In this document: one piece after another, positions 12,120-45,072 of the stretch | Layout of the letters: every line of letters begins with the position of its first letter | How positions within the stretch are numbered: the first letter of the stretch is position 1 | Made by a program: the position numbers and the translations under genes | Source of the DNA: an uncultured Lachnospiraceae bacterium | GTDB taxonomy: Bacteria; Bacillota; Clostridia; Lachnospirales; Lachnospiraceae | NCBI GenBank assembly: GCA_905233905.1 | Contig: CAJOFN010000005.1 | Location: forward strand, 1 to 45,072 | Length of the DNA: 45,072 bases | Direction of reading: 5' to 3' | Notes under the pieces: model-generated | Told to the model about the DNA's origin: nothing | Database searches by the model: none | Seen by the model: only the letters and a program-made list of their open reading frames with translations

Positions 12120-12228
12120 TCCTGACATACTATGAGCTTCCTTCCGCCGGTATTATCCGGTTCAAGTCATAAGGGTTGATGGCTCATTCTTATAATTGCC
12201 ATCTCTCAGCCGCTGCACCCCCAGCCAT
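12120..12228 (-). ncRNA. TPP riboswitch (THI element)
   Basis: Minus strand reads GGGGGTGCAGCGGCTGAGAGatgg...ACCCTTATGACTTGAACCGGATAATACCGGCGGAAGGAAGC, matching conserved TPP aptamer segments. Confidence 0.95.
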
Positions 12229-12291
12229 TATTATATTTACCGTATCTATTGTATGAGTTTTGGCTTTTTTGTCAAGAGCCTGCGATTTCCA

Positions 12292-33471: not shown

Positions 33472-36099
33472 TCAGTAGTCAAGCAAAAAATCCTTAATCT
33501 TCCTGAAAGCAAGGGCGTTTACAATAAAGGCAAAAAGCAGCGTGATCCCTGCAGAGAGGATCAGGCTCATGGGATCAGGTGTGCGGACAAGTTGGATGTG
33601 CGGCTGCTCCAGGGTCCTGATGATCCAATAGGCCAATCCCATACCGGAAAGCAAACCTGCCAAAATACCTGCTATGGTGGTAATTATAACCTCTTTTGCG
33701 GCATACATGGTTGTTTCGGATATTGTAAAGCCGTTTATCCGCATAATGCACAGCTCTTTCTTTTTTTGCATTACATATAGATTTGCCAGATTAAGAAGAA
33801 CTACCGAAGCCATGATCGCTGCCAAAACGATCAGCAGTACGATCACTCCGTTTAAAACAGCAGAAATGGAAGCAAACAGGGCTCTGGAGGTATCTGATCT
33901 CGACATAGAGGTAAAGCCCTTTACCTTTCGCAAGGATGCTAACAGCGCTTTCTCATCTGCGCCATTGAGCTTGACAAAATATGTATCCATGGGACATGGA
34001 CGCTGGAACAGGGTCTGATAATAATCCTCGGAAATTACCATAGCGCGTCCGGTATAGTTATCAAAGATGCCGCCAATAGCAGCCTCATATTCATTGACAA
34101 AATCATCGAAAATCCTGAAGGTATCTCCTGCCTTTAAGTCATAGGTTTCTGCTAAGCGCTTTTGTATCAGTATACTGTCAGAAGGAATTGTCATCAGCTT
34201 TCCGTCTTTGACATTTTTTACGGCAAAAAAGTCATTTAACCGGTCTGTATCCCCACAGATCAGTTCGGACAGCTCCATTGAACGGTCAACCTGATAGGTG
34301 GTGAATTTGTCAAGCACCTGCAAATAATCCGTTCCCGCGTCCTTTAAAACAGCTTCGATATCATCGGCCGTCGTGTCGGATGCATCAGGATTAAACCGGA
34401 CTTTTTTGTCATATTTTACAATTTCACCATATTGCTTATCCATTACGCCGTCAACCGCAGACTTGAGTGAAAATCCGATAACGAGAAGAGCCATGCAGCC
34501 TGCGACGCTGACTGTTGTTATAAGGATTCTTTTCCAGTCTGTCCGGATGGCCTCACCCTTCATAAGAGATACCGCTGTATGTGAAAGAAGCCTGTGACAT
34601 GCGCTAAAGGCGGCTGTTAGAGCTAACAGGATTCCCATTACAGCTACAATGGCTGTAGGTTCCGGTGAAAAATAAGGCATTGATTCCCCAAATACATACA
34701 TTCCGGCGTAGCCCTTACAGATCACGGCCTGCAGCCCCAGGTATGCCAGGGCTGTCCCCAGAATAATGCCGACAATTACACTTGTCAGCGCGAATAAGGC
34801 ATATTTTTTAAATATTTCACCGGTAAAGAAACCAAGTGCCTTCTGGGCACCTATCAGGGATCTTTGTTCGTCAGCCATCCTGCCAATAGTCGCATAACAC
34901 ACCAATGCTCCCACGACAACGAAAAGCAGAGAAAAGGACATGGCAAGACTACCAAGGTTGCTTGCTACCATTGAAAGATCCACAAAAGCAGCATTTGCCA
35001 TCCGGTCAAAGGAAAACCACCTGCAGGCACCGATTTCTTCAATTTGTGCGCGTATTTCTTCATATTGCTTTTCGGCTGTGATCAGGGATTTTTCATATTC
35101 ATTCAGTGCCTTGCCGGCTTTATCAACAGATTTTTCAAGCTTATCTGACTGGTATTCTGCGACATATGAGGCATCAATACCGTATTTTTCTTTGGTATAG
35201 GCTGCATAATCCTGCCATAATGCAGCGTATTTTTCGTTTATTTCTTCAGTTTCTTCCTTTTCCGCTAAGGTCAAAACCTCTTTTGCGGAATTGTATGTAT
35301 TCCATCCATTTTCTATCTGTGCCTCGGTGGCTTTCAATGTGCTCCAGACATAGGAATCCCTTAATTTGGAACGCTCTATGCCCAAGCTGTTAAGCTCATC
35401 CTGTATTTTTGATATTGCCTTGAAATAATCATCCTCAAATGGATTAAACCCTCTTGCTACATCGACCCTTATGTCTGCCCGCATATAGCTTTGCATGGTT
35501 TGTAACGGGTCAAAGGCTTCCCTGGTCACAAGAACGTATAAATTTTCCGGTAATCTTACGGTGATATGATCCGGGTGCAGTACCTCACCAACGATCAGAT
35601 AGTCCGGCCGGATCAGATAATTTGCGGTATTTCCCTTTGCGGTCAAAAGAGAAACCGTATCTCCTACAGAAAGAGAAAGCTTTTCCATAAGCTTTGACTC
35701 CAGAACACATTCTGACGGCTTTTCGGGAAGTCTTCCCTGCACAACGATAGGGACGCTTACCTTTTCGGTCAGGGAGTTCACCGTGACATTCTGTGTTTTT
35801 GTTTTGTTCTTTACCACAGCATTAGTCTGATAAAAGCCTTCAGCGCAGGAAACTCCATCTATGCTTTCTATGGCATCTACATCGCTTTGTGAAAACATAA
35901 GAGTGGATACTGCCTGAATATCCCGGAACGCTGTTTCGTCATAAAACTGTGCTCCGGAACGCTTAATTGCCTCGGAAGCGTAGATGATCCCAAGATAGCT
36001 GGTGACTCCGAGTGCTACGATAAGACATACTGAAAACCAGGATATCTTTTGTCTCGTAATATTTCTTATATTGTCTGAAAATTGAGTTCTTTTCATCAT
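33472..36099 (-). CDS. FtsX-like ABC transporter permease (two FtsX domains)
   Basis: 875 aa with two TM clusters separated by large extracytoplasmic regions; follows an ABC ATPase gene. Confidence 0.85.
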   Translation of the reverse strand: MMKRTQFSDNIRNITRQKISWFSVCLIVALGVTSYLGIIYASEAIKRSGAQFYDETAFRDIQAVSTLMFSQSDVDAIESIDGVSCAEGFYQTNAVVKNKTKTQNVTVNSLTEKVSVPIVVQGRLPEKPSECVLESKLMEKLSLSVGDTVSLLTAKGNTANYLIRPDYLIVGEVLHPDHITVRLPENLYVLVTREAFDPLQTMQSYMRADIRVDVARGFNPFEDDYFKAISKIQDELNSLGIERSKLRDSYVWSTLKATEAQIENGWNTYNSAKEVLTLAEKEETEEINEKYAALWQDYAAYTKEKYGIDASYVAEYQSDKLEKSVDKAGKALNEYEKSLITAEKQYEEIRAQIEEIGACRWFSFDRMANAAFVDLSMVASNLGSLAMSFSLLFVVVGALVCYATIGRMADEQRSLIGAQKALGFFTGEIFKKYALFALTSVIVGIILGTALAYLGLQAVICKGYAGMYVFGESMPYFSPEPTAIVAVMGILLALTAAFSACHRLLSHTAVSLMKGEAIRTDWKRILITTVSVAGCMALLVIGFSLKSAVDGVMDKQYGEIVKYDKKVRFNPDASDTTADDIEAVLKDAGTDYLQVLDKFTTYQVDRSMELSELICGDTDRLNDFFAVKNVKDGKLMTIPSDSILIQKRLAETYDLKAGDTFRIFDDFVNEYEAAIGGIFDNYTGRAMVISEDYYQTLFQRPCPMDTYFVKLNGADEKALLASLRKVKGFTSMSRSDTSRALFASISAVLNGVIVLLIVLAAIMASVVLLNLANLYVMQKKKELCIMRINGFTISETTMYAAKEVIITTIAGILAGLLSGMGLAYWIIRTLEQPHIQLVRTPDPMSLILSAGITLLFAFIVNALAFRKIKDFLLDY

Positions 36100-36109
36100 A
36101 AATCACCAT

Positions 36110-37333
36110 TTACCATAGAAGCTCTTTTGCGGAAAGAGGGTGGAGATTGACCCGGATCGCCGATACCATGCCATCCTTCAACCGAACCACCCGATCCGCC
36201 ATTTTTGCGATCTCTTCATTGTGTGTGATCATACAGACAGTTTTCCCCTGTACCCTGACCACATCCTCTATAACGGAAAGCACCTCTATGCTTGTGGAAA
36301 AGTCCAATGCAGCCGTTGGCTCATCGGCTATGATCAGCGTAGGGTTTTTGACCAATGCTCTTGCTATGGAAACGCGCTGCTGTTGTCCGCCGCTCATCTC
36401 GGAAGGATAATTGCCTGCACGCTCAGACAGTCCGACTTTTGCAATAGCTTCTTCCGGAGATATGGGGTTTTGTGATATTTCCGCAATAAATCTGACATTT
36501 TCCAGCGCTGTAAGATTAGGCATGAGATTATATGATTGAAATATAAAGCCGATATAATTCCGGCGATATGCCGTAAGCTCCTTCTCTGTGGGCTTGGAAA
36601 AATCTTTTCCTTCCACGATAAGAGAGCCTTCTGTCATAAAATCCATTCCTCCCACGATATTCATCATAGTGGATTTTCCGCAGCCGCTCTCGCCAAGCAC
36701 AACTAAAAATTCATGCTCGTATATATCAAGGTCAATACCCTTTAAAACCCGAAGTATATGATCACCATTGCCATACTCTTTGACGACTCCTCTTAAGGAT
36801 ATTAGGGTCTTTTTATCTTCTGCCTTCTCGACTGATCTGCCGTCCAGAATGGCATCAACATGCTCATCTGTAAGATACTGACCATAGGTTTTTTTGATCA
36901 GCTCATCCCTGCGGTCCAGAGACTCGTTGAGCCGTCGTATCTCCTGTTTGGCTGACAGGGCATCCCTTAATTCGGAAAGCTCGGTGATATCCTCAATTAT
37001 CAGGACTATAAACTGCCTGGATGAGTCCATTTCAATGGAATAGGTACTGACAAGGTAATGCTTTGGCTCTCCTGACAGCTCATATTCTACGGGCACCCTC
37101 ATATTGATCTTGTCGTTGAGGATAGCATCTAACATAATATCCATCAGATCATCATATTTCTCTCCATCAGCCTCAAAAAATACTTCCGCAAGGCTCTTTC
37201 CCGTAATATCATCCTTAAGCCCTAAAAATGCTCTGATAGACGAATTCCCCATCTGGATCCGCCGGTCTGTTCCGACCACCAGGACCCCGGCACTCATGTT
37301 TTCGATAACTCGTTGGTAAATTGTCTGTTCCAT
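36110..37333 (-). CDS. PAS domain-ABC transporter ATP-binding protein fusion (LolD/MacB-type ATPase)
   Basis: N-terminal PAS (MSAGVLVVGTDRRIQMGNSSIRAFLGLKDDITGKSLAEVF); GESGCGKST Walker A, MSGGQQQRVSIARAL signature, LIIADEPTAALD Walker B; RBS agaggg. Confidence 0.9.
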   Translation of the reverse strand: MEQTIYQRVIENMSAGVLVVGTDRRIQMGNSSIRAFLGLKDDITGKSLAEVFFEADGEKYDDLMDIMLDAILNDKINMRVPVEYELSGEPKHYLVSTYSIEMDSSRQFIVLIIEDITELSELRDALSAKQEIRRLNESLDRRDELIKKTYGQYLTDEHVDAILDGRSVEKAEDKKTLISLRGVVKEYGNGDHILRVLKGIDLDIYEHEFLVVLGESGCGKSTMMNIVGGMDFMTEGSLIVEGKDFSKPTEKELTAYRRNYIGFIFQSYNLMPNLTALENVRFIAEISQNPISPEEAIAKVGLSERAGNYPSEMSGGQQQRVSIARALVKNPTLIIADEPTAALDFSTSIEVLSVIEDVVRVQGKTVCMITHNEEIAKMADRVVRLKDGMVSAIRVNLHPLSAKELLW

Positions 37334-37381
37334 AGAATATCCCTCTTTATCACCAGATAATGACATGAATGGTATTAAAAA

Positions 37382-37411
37382 TCGGGGCAAGGAGTTGATC
37401 CAATGCCCCGT
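37382..37411 (-). terminator. Intrinsic terminator after the binding-protein gene
   Basis: CGGGGCA/TGCCCCG 7-bp stem (37383-37389/37404-37410); T-rich tracts on both strands. Confidence 0.75.
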
Positions 37412-41246: not shown

Positions 41247-41293
41247 CCCACTAATCCCGTAGGAATATATAGATTTTGTTGGCGGAGGTTGTT

Positions 41294-41722
41294 ATGACTA
41301 TATCAACAAAAGGAAGATATGCCTTGAGAATCATGCTGGATCTGGCTATTTACAACACAGGTGAGCCGATACGCGTGAAGGATATAGCAAAGAGGCAGAA
41401 GATATCTGAAAAATACCTCGAGCAGATCATTTCCATGTTAAATAAATCAGGTTATGTTACGTCGGTCAGGGGCGCAAACGGAGGCTATTACCTTAAGAGA
41501 GCAACCAAAGAGTATACGGTGGGAGATATATTAAGGGTCACCGAGGGGAATATTACCCCTGTTTCCTGTGTGGACAATGATGATTGTGACAGGAAGGAAG
41601 CCTGTGTGGCGAATATTGTCTGGAAGAAGCTTGATGACGCCATCCGGGGTGTTGTAGATAATATAACCCTGGAGGATATGGTCGGCTGGTATGGCGACAT
41701 GTCTGTTGACTATGTGATATAG
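41294..41722 (+). CDS. Rrf2-family transcriptional regulator with Cx5Cx5C
   Basis: MTISTKGRYALRIMLDLA, KYLEQIISMLNKSGYVTSVRGANGGYYL; CVDNDDCDRKEAC. Confidence 0.92.
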   Translation: MTISTKGRYALRIMLDLAIYNTGEPIRVKDIAKRQKISEKYLEQIISMLNKSGYVTSVRGANGGYYLKRATKEYTVGDILRVTEGNITPVSCVDNDDCDRKEACVANIVWKKLDDAIRGVVDNITLEDMVGWYGDMSVDYVI

Positions 41723-41733
41723 AGGAGAGTGTA

Positions 41734-42744
41734 ATGGCAGGGATAGTTGAGGTTAAAAACCTATCAAAGACCTTTTACAACAAGGATTCCGAGGTAAATG
41801 CCCTAAAGGATATCAACTTAAGCATTGAAAAGGGAGACATATACGGGATCATAGGGATGTCGGGCGCAGGAAAGTCAACATTGGTACGATGTCTTAACTT
41901 CCTGGAAAGGCCCACCAGTGGTGAAGTATATATAGACGGGGAGGCGCTGTCGGGACTAAGCGACAAAAAGCTAAAGGAGATCCGGGGCAGCATAGCCATG
42001 ATCTTCCAGAACTTCAATCTGCTGAATCAGGTCAATATCATTGATAATGTAGCTTTTCCGCTCCGTATACAGAAGATGAATAAGGCTCAGGCAAGGCAGA
42101 AGGCAAGGGAGCTGCTTAAAACCGTAGGCTTAAGTGAAAAGGAAAAGAATTATCCGTCCCAGCTTTCCGGAGGACAAAAGCAGAGGGTGGCGATAGCAAG
42201 GGCTCTTGCAAACGATCCGAAGATCCTTCTGTGTGATGAGGCAACAAGCGCCCTTGACCCGAGGACTACGGCTCAGATACTGGAGCTTTTGAAAAAGATA
42301 AATGATGAAATGGGAATAACCATAATTGTTATTACCCATCAGATGTCCGTTGTTCAGGATATATGCCACAAGGTGGCCATAATAGAAGACGGCAGGCTGG
42401 CTGAAAGTGGGATAGTGTCGGATATATTCGCAAATCCCAAGTCTCATGCGGGAAAGATGCTGGTGATAGGGGAGAAGGATATGGAGATTCCTCTTCTCCA
42501 TGAGGACAGGAGAATAAGGATAGTATTCGAGACAAATTCTTCATATGAGCCGGTCATAGCGAATATGGTGCTTCATTTTAAAACACCGGTCAACATATTA
42601 AGAGCCAACACAAGAAATGTTGAGGGAACCGCTATGGGAGATATGATCCTGGGGCTTCCGGAGGATAAGAGGATGCAGGAAGATATGATAGCATACCTTG
42701 AAGAGAAAAAGCTTGTGGTATCGGAGGTTACGGAAGATGTTTGA
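41734..42744 (+). CDS. metN: Methionine-type ABC transporter ATP-binding protein with NIL domain
   Basis: GMSGAGKSTLVRCLNFLERPTSGEV, LSGGQKQRVAIARAL, C-terminal NIL-like domain. Confidence 0.92.
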   Translation: MAGIVEVKNLSKTFYNKDSEVNALKDINLSIEKGDIYGIIGMSGAGKSTLVRCLNFLERPTSGEVYIDGEALSGLSDKKLKEIRGSIAMIFQNFNLLNQVNIIDNVAFPLRIQKMNKAQARQKARELLKTVGLSEKEKNYPSQLSGGQKQRVAIARALANDPKILLCDEATSALDPRTTAQILELLKKINDEMGITIIVITHQMSVVQDICHKVAIIEDGRLAESGIVSDIFANPKSHAGKMLVIGEKDMEIPLLHEDRRIRIVFETNSSYEPVIANMVLHFKTPVNILRANTRNVEGTAMGDMILGLPEDKRMQEDMIAYLEEKKLVVSEVTEDV

Positions 42745-43405
42745 GAGTTTTACCGCTGAAGTAGTCAGCATGATAGGCAAGGGTATATTTGAAACCCTAT
42801 ATATGACAGTTATATCCACATTTTTCGGCTATATAATCGGACTGCCCTGGGGAGTGGCATTATATGTTTCATCTCAGAAAGGACTTAAACCCAACGCCGC
42901 GATATACGGCATATTAAGCTTTATAGCCAATGTCATGAGGAGTATTCCCTTCCTTATCCTGTTGATACTTGTGATGCCCTTTACCTTATTCATTGTAGGA
43001 AGGACCTACGGCTCCACGGCAACGATAGTGCCACTGACGCTTTCCGCTGCCCCGCTTATTGCGAGAATGGTGGAATCCTCAGTATCAGAGGTTGACGCAG
43101 GAGTAATTGAGGCGGCACAGTCCATGGGAGCAGGAACCTGGACCCTTATAACCAGCGTACTCCTTGTGGAAGGCAGGGTGTCTCTTATATCAGGCATTGT
43201 CATAATGCTGGGAACTGTTTTGGGCTATTCCGCGATGGCAGGAGTCGTTGGAGGCGGCGGTCTGGGAGACATAGCCATACGTTACGGCTACTACAGATAT
43301 CAGGCAGATATAATGATCGTTACGGTTGTGCTTCTGGTAGCGCTTGTAATGATCCTGCAGGCTCTGGGTTCAAAAATAGCTGTCGCTTTCGATAAGAGAA
43401 AGTAA
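42737..43405 (+). CDS. metI: Methionine-type ABC transporter permease
   Basis: FETLYMTVISTFFGYIIGLPWGVAL, MRSIPFLILLILVMPFT, AGVVGGGGLGDIAIRYGYYRYQ. Confidence 0.93.
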   Translation: MFESFTAEVVSMIGKGIFETLYMTVISTFFGYIIGLPWGVALYVSSQKGLKPNAAIYGILSFIANVMRSIPFLILLILVMPFTLFIVGRTYGSTATIVPLTLSAAPLIARMVESSVSEVDAGVIEAAQSMGAGTWTLITSVLLVEGRVSLISGIVIMLGTVLGYSAMAGVVGGGGLGDIAIRYGYYRYQADIMIVTVVLLVALVMILQALGSKIAVAFDKRK

Positions 43406-43467
43406 AGATTGGTAAAATTGTACAAATTATGATGAAGATAAGGTGAAAAATTGCACTACTAAACCTA

Positions 43468-43496
43468 TTGAAATAGTAGGAATAGTAGAGTATCAT
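43468..43496 (+). promoter_or_regulatory. Candidate promoter TTGAAA-N17-TATCAT with AATAGTAG direct repeat in the spacer
   Basis: Hexamers read directly; AATAGTAGGAATAGTAG lies between them. Confidence 0.55.
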
Positions 43497-43531: not shown

Positions 43532-45072
43532 ATGAATGGTTTAGGGAAAAAGCTTACAGCGTTGCTGTTGACAGGTGCTCTGGCAGGAGGACTTGGAGCC
43601 TGTGGAGGAGGCGGCTCAAGTCAGTCAACGGATACATCCGGGGCATCCTCCGATGAAGAGGTCACCCAAGAGGCTTCAAGTGATGTGGTTTACAGAACGC
43701 TGGATGAGATAAAGGATTCCGGTACGGTAAATATTGGTGTATTTTCCGATAAGAACCCCTTTGGTTATGTTGACGAAAACGGTGATTATCAGGGATACGA
43801 TGTATACTTTGCAGAGAGGATCGGAGAGGATCTGGGAGTAGATATCAATTATGTATCCACGGAAGCTGCCAACCGTGTTGAGTATCTTGAGACCGGCAAG
43901 GTAGATATAGTTTTAGCAAACTTTACCGTGACAGATGAGCGTGCCGAAAAGGTTGATTTCACTCTTCCTTACATGAACGTGGCTCTCGGTGTTGTATCTC
44001 CCGACAGCAATGTGATCAAGGATTTGAGTGAGATCGGAGAGGATGATGAGGTTATCGTTATTTCCGGAACCACAGCAGAGACTTATCTTACAGAGAACAA
44101 CCCTGAGATCAAGCTGCAGAAGTACGATACCTACGCAAATGCCAAGACAGCTTTAGAGAACGGACAGGCCGTGGCATGGGCGAACGACAATACAGAGGTT
44201 ATAGCCTACGCGCTGCAGAATTCAGGCTATACCGTGGGCATATCCGAGCTTGGAAGCAAGGATACCATAGCAGCGGCAGTTTCAAAGGGTAATTCAACTC
44301 TTCTTGACTGGTTAAACGGTGAGATAGAGAGCCTTGGAAGCGAGAACTTCTTCCACGCAGACTATGAGGCGACCCTGCTTGATACTTACGGAAAAGATTA
44401 CGAAGAGACACTTGTTGTGGAAGGCGGCAAAGCTGAGGCAGCAGGTGCTGAAGGAACAAGCGACGCTGATATTCCCGAAGGAAACGGCGAGACAATTAAG
44501 GTTGCAGCATCCCCCACACCTCATGCTGAGATCCTTGCAGAGGCGGCAAAGGTATTATCCGAGCATGGATGGAACCTTGAAGTAACAGAGTTTGAAGATT
44601 ATGTACAGCCCAACCTTGTTGTTGAGCAGGGTGAGTTTGACGCAAATTATTTCCAGCACATCCCTTACCTTGATGATTTCAATGCTGAAAAGGGTACACA
44701 TCTAATAAACGCAGGCGGTATTCATTATGAGCCCTTCGGGATCTATCCCGGAACAAAGAAGGAGCTTTCAGAGCTTTCTGATGGGGATGAGATAGCAGTA
44801 CCTAATGATACTACCAATGAGGCAAGAGCACTCCTTCTGCTCCAGGACAACGGTATCATCACCTTAAAGGAAGGCGCAGACCTTACAGCAACCAAGAACG
44901 ATATAGTTGACAATCCCAACAATATTGAGATCGTTGAGCTTGAGGCTGCACAGGTTGCAAGAGTAGCAAACGAAGCCGCGTTTGTAGTTCTTAACGGCAA
45001 CTACGCTCTTGAGGCAGGCTTCTCAGTGGCAAATGATTCTGTTGCATATGAGTCAAATGACTCGACGGCAGC
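43532..45072 (+). CDS. Fused SBP_bac_3 (polar amino acid-type) + Lipoprotein_9/NlpA (MetQ-type) substrate-binding lipoprotein; runs off window
   Basis: No stop before window end (absent from the ORF track). N-terminal lipobox LGACGGG; SBP_bac_3 region GYDVYFAERIGEDLG; MetQ-like region VAASPTPHAEILAEAAKVL...GEFDANYFQHIPYLDDF. Confidence 0.88.
   Translation, partial: MNGLGKKLTALLLTGALAGGLGACGGGGSSQSTDTSGASSDEEVTQEASSDVVYRTLDEIKDSGTVNIGVFSDKNPFGYVDENGDYQGYDVYFAERIGEDLGVDINYVSTEAANRVEYLETGKVDIVLANFTVTDERAEKVDFTLPYMNVALGVVSPDSNVIKDLSEIGEDDEVIVISGTTAETYLTENNPEIKLQKYDTYANAKTALENGQAVAWANDNTEVIAYALQNSGYTVGISELGSKDTIAAAVSKGNSTLLDWLNGEIESLGSENFFHADYEATLLDTYGKDYEETLVVEGGKAEAAGAEGTSDADIPEGNGETIKVAASPTPHAEILAEAAKVLSEHGWNLEVTEFEDYVQPNLVVEQGEFDANYFQHIPYLDDFNAEKGTHLINAGGIHYEPFGIYPGTKKELSELSDGDEIAVPNDTTNEARALLLLQDNGIITLKEGADLTATKNDIVDNPNNIEIVELEAAQVARVANEAAFVVLNGNYALEAGFSVANDSVAYESNDSTA

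Follow-up and report, generated by a model that had tools for sequence, protein, structure and literature searches.

Architecture of the fusion gene

The window analysed here, a stretch of 45,072 nucleotides from a Lachnospiraceae bacterium, is the entire contig C5 of a source genome assembly of 1.65 Mb in 112 contigs (93% complete). Its 3′ end is occupied by an open reading frame that begins with an ATG at position 43532 and runs stop-free through 513 codons (to 45070) as far as the contig end. Since the window spans the contig end to end, this gene is incomplete at its 3′ end. On the same strand it is preceded by genes for an Rrf2-family regulator, an ATPase and a permease (Table 1).

Table 1. 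Features of the gene cluster at the 3′ end of the window.
Feature	Position	Strand	Basis
Weaker palindrome copy CCCACTAATCCCGTAGG, upstream of the Rrf2 gene	41247..41263		Pattern scan; single weak match, may be chance
Rrf2-family regulator, head of the gene cluster	41294..41722	+	Pfam Rrf2, 1.4e-41
metN, ATPase with C-terminal NIL domain	41734..42744	+	Pfam ABC_tran, NIL
metI, permease	42737..43405	+	BPD_transp_1; NCBIfam MetI
Palindrome CCTATTGAAATAGTAGG, candidate Rrf2-type operator at the fusion promoter	43464..43480		Pattern scan
Fusion lipoprotein gene, 3′ end cut by the contig end	43532..45072	+	Open frame, SBP_bac_3 and Lipoprotein_9 in-frame
Signal peptide and lipobox LGAC, lipidated Cys24	43532..43603	+	Sequence; Cys24 conserved
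SBP_bac_3 half, L-cysteine-receptor type, residues 52–300	43685..44431	+	Pfam; closest solved chains 2yjp, 1xt8
Linker, about residues 301–318	44432..44485	+	Low model confidence; residues 298–312 below 50
MetQ half, residues 319–513 seen	44486..45072	+	Pfam Lipoprotein_9; 4ib2 match

The frame encodes two substrate-binding protein (SBP) domains in tandem. Residues 67–269 match SBP_bac_3 (2.5e-27, 95.7 bits against a gathering score of 26.4) and residues 322–511 match Lipoprotein_9 (8.9e-67, 225.1 bits against 27), the latter being the sole such domain found in the source genome. The whole-protein cut-offs of the NCBIfam MetQ models are missed by this truncated and diverged domain (150.5 against 374 and 149.7 against 228.85 bits). 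Alignment to full-length relatives places about 49 C-terminal residues of the MetQ half beyond the contig, and a search of the source genome with this short query returned no match for the missing tail. The AlphaFold models of the window fusion and of a full-length relative (mean pLDDT 75 and 79, respectively) both depict two lobes connected by a disordered linker, and the lipidated Cys24 is invariant in an alignment of 37 fusions. The first-pass annotation, which had described a single frame with lipoprotein signal, SBP_bac_3 domain, linker and MetQ domain, is thus borne out by the frame, the Pfam matches and the lipobox.

For the metN product the best NCBIfam model is MetN, under its cut-off, and the metI product reaches 207.9 bits (1.4e-61) with the MetI model, the cut-off being 212. 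Elsewhere in the window, a frame at 36110–37390 on the minus strand encodes an ABC-type ATPase (33% to MetN) in its C-terminal part, preceded by an N-terminal part that reads like a PAS domain; the frame adjoins a large FtsX-like permease frame (33472–36099).

Occurrence of the fusion in other genomes

In a scan of GTDB species genomes the best 80 loci were taken, and all of them are fused. They stem from many metagenome-assembled genomes and from isolates (Butyrivibrio NC2002, Lachnospiraceae XBB2008 and Lachnospiraceae YSD2013). Of 150 genomes sampled from the same family, eight besides the source genome contain this fusion, and many others have the halves separately. Complete frames among 81 fused ones span 542–666 amino acids, the linker comprises 13–42 residues (n = 81) and the lipobox is matched in 79 of the 81; full-length relatives stop after the MetQ half and contain no permease domain. 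The fusion at L105:2594-4291 carries a signal peptide devoid of the lipobox cysteine and may be secreted instead of lipid-anchored.

An assembly or frameshift error merging two genes, named in the first-pass annotation as one finding that would overturn it, would fit a contig that terminates within the gene and a gene order unlike that of most relatives. The fusion is nevertheless shared by many independent assemblies and isolates, and in a tree the window MetQ half clusters with fused MetQ halves (support 95). With at least 80 loci of SBP_bac_3–Lipoprotein_9 architecture recovered from other genomes, such an artefact is ruled out in practice and an assembly chimera was rejected; we regard either as extremely improbable. 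The fusion of two unrelated SBP families in one lipoprotein is confirmed. A literature search, with subscription papers mostly outside its reach, found no description of this architecture.

Ligand sites and structural relatives

The closest solved chains to the N-terminal half are 2yjp (229 bits) and 1xt8 (220 bits), both titled L-cysteine receptors in the PDB, as compared with 50 bits for the Neisseria cystine receptor 2yln. Structure alignment of this half with 1xt8 (CjaA) and 2yjp gives about 46–51% identity. The C-terminal half is closest to 4ib2 (1.1e-93) and to other MetQ proteins. A structure search with the model of the full-length relative matches 4ib2, the methionine-bound 4qhq, 1xt8 and 2yjp. 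Just two of the best 50 structure matches cover both halves, namely 6h30 (the GlnPQ tandem) and 4q0c (the periplasmic domain of BvgS), and both superpose poorly.

In NmMetQ, methionine is contacted by Tyr81, Phe98, His100, Tyr103, Arg156, Asn213 and Asn238 (PMC6739813). The equivalents of the first six, namely Tyr357, Phe374, His376, Tyr379, Arg432 and Asn488, are present in the window protein, while that of Asn238 lies beyond the contig end and is invariant in relatives. Throughout the 37 fusions these positions are invariant, except for Phe374, which is retained in 28. Contact positions of the N-terminal half were picked by motif match to the contacts modelled for FliY (PMC7170509), and the residues thus selected (Thr132, Arg137, Thr181 and Asp219) are invariant in the fusions as well. 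With L-cysteine receptors as closest relatives and the amino-acid contact positions kept, the N-terminal half resembles the L-cysteine receptors.

As judged from these residues, the predicted ligand sites are intact in both halves, and the N-terminal half would capture L-cysteine and the C-terminal half methionine. A half that is degenerate or acts only as a sensor finds no support, nearly all tested ligand-contact positions being invariant in both. The dual role in sulfur amino acids proposed in the first-pass annotation agrees with these data; for the N-terminal half they point to L-cysteine rather than to the cystine named there, the L-cysteine receptors 2yjp and 1xt8 scoring far above 2yln.

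Gene context of the fusion

The commonest gene order, FUSION-MetN-MetI-PermA-PermB-ATPase, is found at 50 of 81 fused loci, with variants at the others. PermA, a component of a polar-amino-acid ABC importer, occurs at all 75 fused loci with enough flanking sequence, and MetNI is usually found beside the fusion too. In relatives with separate proteins, the counterpart of the SBP_bac_3 half adjoins PermA-PermB-ATPase and that of the MetQ half adjoins MetNI, at different loci. As the halves belong to separate importers there, the fusion unites in one chain what are two pumps' binding proteins. Models of ectoine, glutamine and cystine importers match PermA and the ATPase, but with scores under the curated cut-offs, so that these two proteins do not reveal the substrate of the importer. 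In some fused operons (L038, L096, L105, L174 and others) MetN comprises about 257 residues, which is too short for a NIL domain, unlike the MetN of the window.

In the window, MetNI is the sole importer beside the fusion, as would be expected if both halves fed only MetNI and methionine were imported together with a second sulfur amino acid, as first proposed. This explanation is improbable, since in relatives a permease pair and ATPase of its own accompany the SBP_bac_3 half at 75 of 75 testable loci and MetNI is missing at eight fusion loci. The earlier description of the fusion as feeding MetNI is accordingly incomplete: MetNI is usually present, and a second polar-amino-acid ABC importer has to be added. 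No close PermA was detected in the 93%-complete source assembly, and the second importer is absent from the window; in this organism it presumably sits past the contig end.

At the eight fusion loci where no MetNI is adjacent (a ninth, L115, retains a MetN remnant of 76 residues), the genomes carry MetI elsewhere together with a second, stand-alone MetQ. This MetQ lies beside MetNI in seven of eight fetched stretches and on another contig in the remaining genome, G158. These loci, with the polar-amino-acid importer alone, could be read such that both halves feed that importer, or that the MetQ half serves as a spacer or scavenger, with the separate MetQ serving MetNI. We consider this unlikely, though less so than delivery to MetNI alone: MetNI is part of the same cluster at most fused loci, the fused MetQ is the only MetQ found in the genome of the window, and its ligand positions remain invariant. 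Genomes with a MetNI-linked fusion (G000, G163, G164, G251 and G306) possess a single MetQ, the fused one, which at such MetNI-linked loci is thus plausibly the functional MetQ.

Promoter and leader elements

The palindrome CCTATTGAAATAGTAGG overlaps a promoter-like arrangement of TTGAAA (43468–43473), a 17-nt spacer and TATCAT (43491–43496) ahead of the fusion. It is the only CCTA-N9-TAGG sequence within the window, and palindromes of its type occur upstream of 30 of 79 fusions as opposed to 16 of 1402 control stretches. The local Rrf2 protein probably binds this candidate operator. CymR is its best NCBIfam subfamily, yet the label was rejected because the curated equivalog cut-off is not reached (135.2 against 195 bits). 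At L181:6647-7087, an Rrf2 protein 62% identical to that of the window is encoded directly 3′ of a stand-alone MetN-MetI-MetQ operon, which supports a link between the regulator and methionine uptake.

SBPs can function as sensors, and the Rrf2 regulator in the local gene cluster might be taken to indicate a mainly regulatory or sensing fusion, one half of which delivers no substrate. The conserved neighbourhood with importers, where no receptor or kinase partner is seen, makes such a role very unlikely. At the fusion operon neither a riboswitch nor a T-box was found (window and 19 related loci). A TPP riboswitch is located elsewhere in the window, at 12122–12232 on the minus strand (61.5 bits against a gathering score of 54.3).

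A short frame in which Cys and Met codons abound precedes many fusions; that of L145, for example, encodes MCMCMCRMLFSQA and starts about 266 nt upstream. At least six Cys or Met residues within 14 are encoded at 44 of 81 fused loci versus 11 of 1326 control stretches. In leaders with the anchor motif, a Ser-Gln/Arg-Ala codon stretch pairs downstream at nine or more of 11 positions in 41 of 42 cases, whereas shuffled controls attain nine paired positions in 13%. The two strands covary: leaders with CAG have CTG, those with CGG mostly CCG or CTC. All these counts use one best site for each locus and come from related loci, and they overstate independence. The downstream stretch folds into a hairpin as well, ahead of a T-run, and together with the antiterminator and terminator pairing the leader has the layout of a ribosome-mediated attenuator. 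On these sequence features, the leader of the relatives looks like a Cys and Met attenuator, of which no earlier description was found in the literature searched. Neither Pfam nor NCBIfam contains a family that matches the leader peptides, and Rfam gave no match at eight fused loci.

A different layout is observed at L095, L096 and L125, where the Cys and Met codons immediately precede the stop codon (e.g. ...RCRMCMC*) and the usual anchor motif is absent. Cys- or Met-rich leaders also stand ahead of some stand-alone cysteine-importer and MetQNI operons (L044, L054, L057, L063, L068, L069 and L070), indicating that the leader family is broader than the fusion. Within this handful of unfused operons, the cysteine ones lean towards Cys (L068, L044) and the MetQ ones towards Met (L054, L063, L070). 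The window lacks such a Cys/Met leader and contains the Rrf2 gene and the candidate operator instead.

Origin of the fusion

Both operons, PermA-PermB-ATPase-SBP and MetQ-MetN-MetI, occur unfused. At L097, L105 and L108, and likewise at L175 from another family, the permeases lie upstream of the fusion and MetN-MetI downstream, an order that fits an end-to-end join of the two operons. We infer that the genes were fused in this manner.

Over the full fusion, L175 and L093 share 78% identity. Compared with the window, identity is 77–80% in their SBP_bac_3 halves and only 43–45% in their MetQ halves. L093 resides on a 3.4-kb contig in the assembly of a congener of the window organism, and may be foreign in view of this short contig. 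A stand-alone MetQ with 69% identity to the MetQ of L175 is found beside MetN-MetI in another family. A second lineage combining the same cysteine half with a different MetQ would be explained by two joins, or by one join followed by replacement of the MetQ-MetN-MetI module. A strict single origin is unsupported: the trees, calculated by a quick method and containing many weak branches, need five and three label changes, and the L093/L175 MetQ differs.

Proposed function

The fusion is probably a bifunctional lipid-anchored SBP for sulfur amino acids, which serves both a polar-amino-acid importer and MetNI. The N-terminal half would bind L-cysteine and dock on the polar-amino-acid ABC importer (two permeases and an ATPase), the C-terminal half would bind methionine and dock on MetNI, and the flexible linker would allow a single anchored chain to serve both. 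Such a fusion would hold the two receptors at equal number and the two pumps near each other. The fused loci, the co-location of the importers, the separate loci of unfused relatives, the closest relatives of each half, the invariant ligand positions, the lack of a further MetQ in genomes with a MetNI-linked fusion, the Cys and Met leaders and the second lineage speak for service to two importers; against it stand the second importer unseen in window and assembly, the eight loci with a separate MetQ and no adjacent MetNI, and PermA and ATPase models that name no substrate.

We give about even chances to a more far-reaching proposal, in which one chain services the two ABC importers at once and acts as a tether coupling cysteine and methionine uptake, two or more distinct MetQ lineages were each joined to one and the same lineage of cysteine receptors, and in many relatives an attenuator leader reads the charging of Cys-tRNA and Met-tRNA.

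SBPs are usually assigned to a single importer. With a conserved fusion of heterologous domains encoded next to two importers, it can be tested directly whether two pumps can be served by one SBP chain, and how they share docking. The fusion suggests, too, that Lachnospiraceae of the rumen and gut handle cysteine and methionine supply as a single unit.

Comparison with known systems

The leaders of the relatives resemble the cysteine leader peptides and attenuators of actinobacterial cys operons (PMC1262725) and uORFC-8-2 before cysS (PMC8632094) in placing a short Cys-codon frame upstream of sulfur-amino-acid genes. They differ in that Cys and Met codons are mixed and a dual uptake operon follows.

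The C-terminal half is a MetQ like 4ib2, NmMetQ and E. coli MetQ, and metI and metN with its NIL domain adjoin as in MetNIQ systems, where, however, MetQ is a separate protein. The N-terminal half has its closest solved relatives in two L-cysteine receptors, CjaA of C. jejuni (1xt8) and 2yjp of N. gonorrhoeae; unlike the fusion, each of these has a single domain and belongs to one importer. Two linker-joined SBP domains per chain are also found in SBD1-SBD2 of GlnPQ (6h30), but there both domains come from a single family, are attached to the permease and supply one importer (PMC8025302). The present chain, by comparison, contains two domains from two families, is lipid-anchored without a transmembrane domain, and is encoded adjacent to two importers. 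It works like tandem SBDs and is not a member of the GlnPQ type. Tandem binding domains as such are already known; the fusion of two SBP families beside two importers is a new form of this arrangement.
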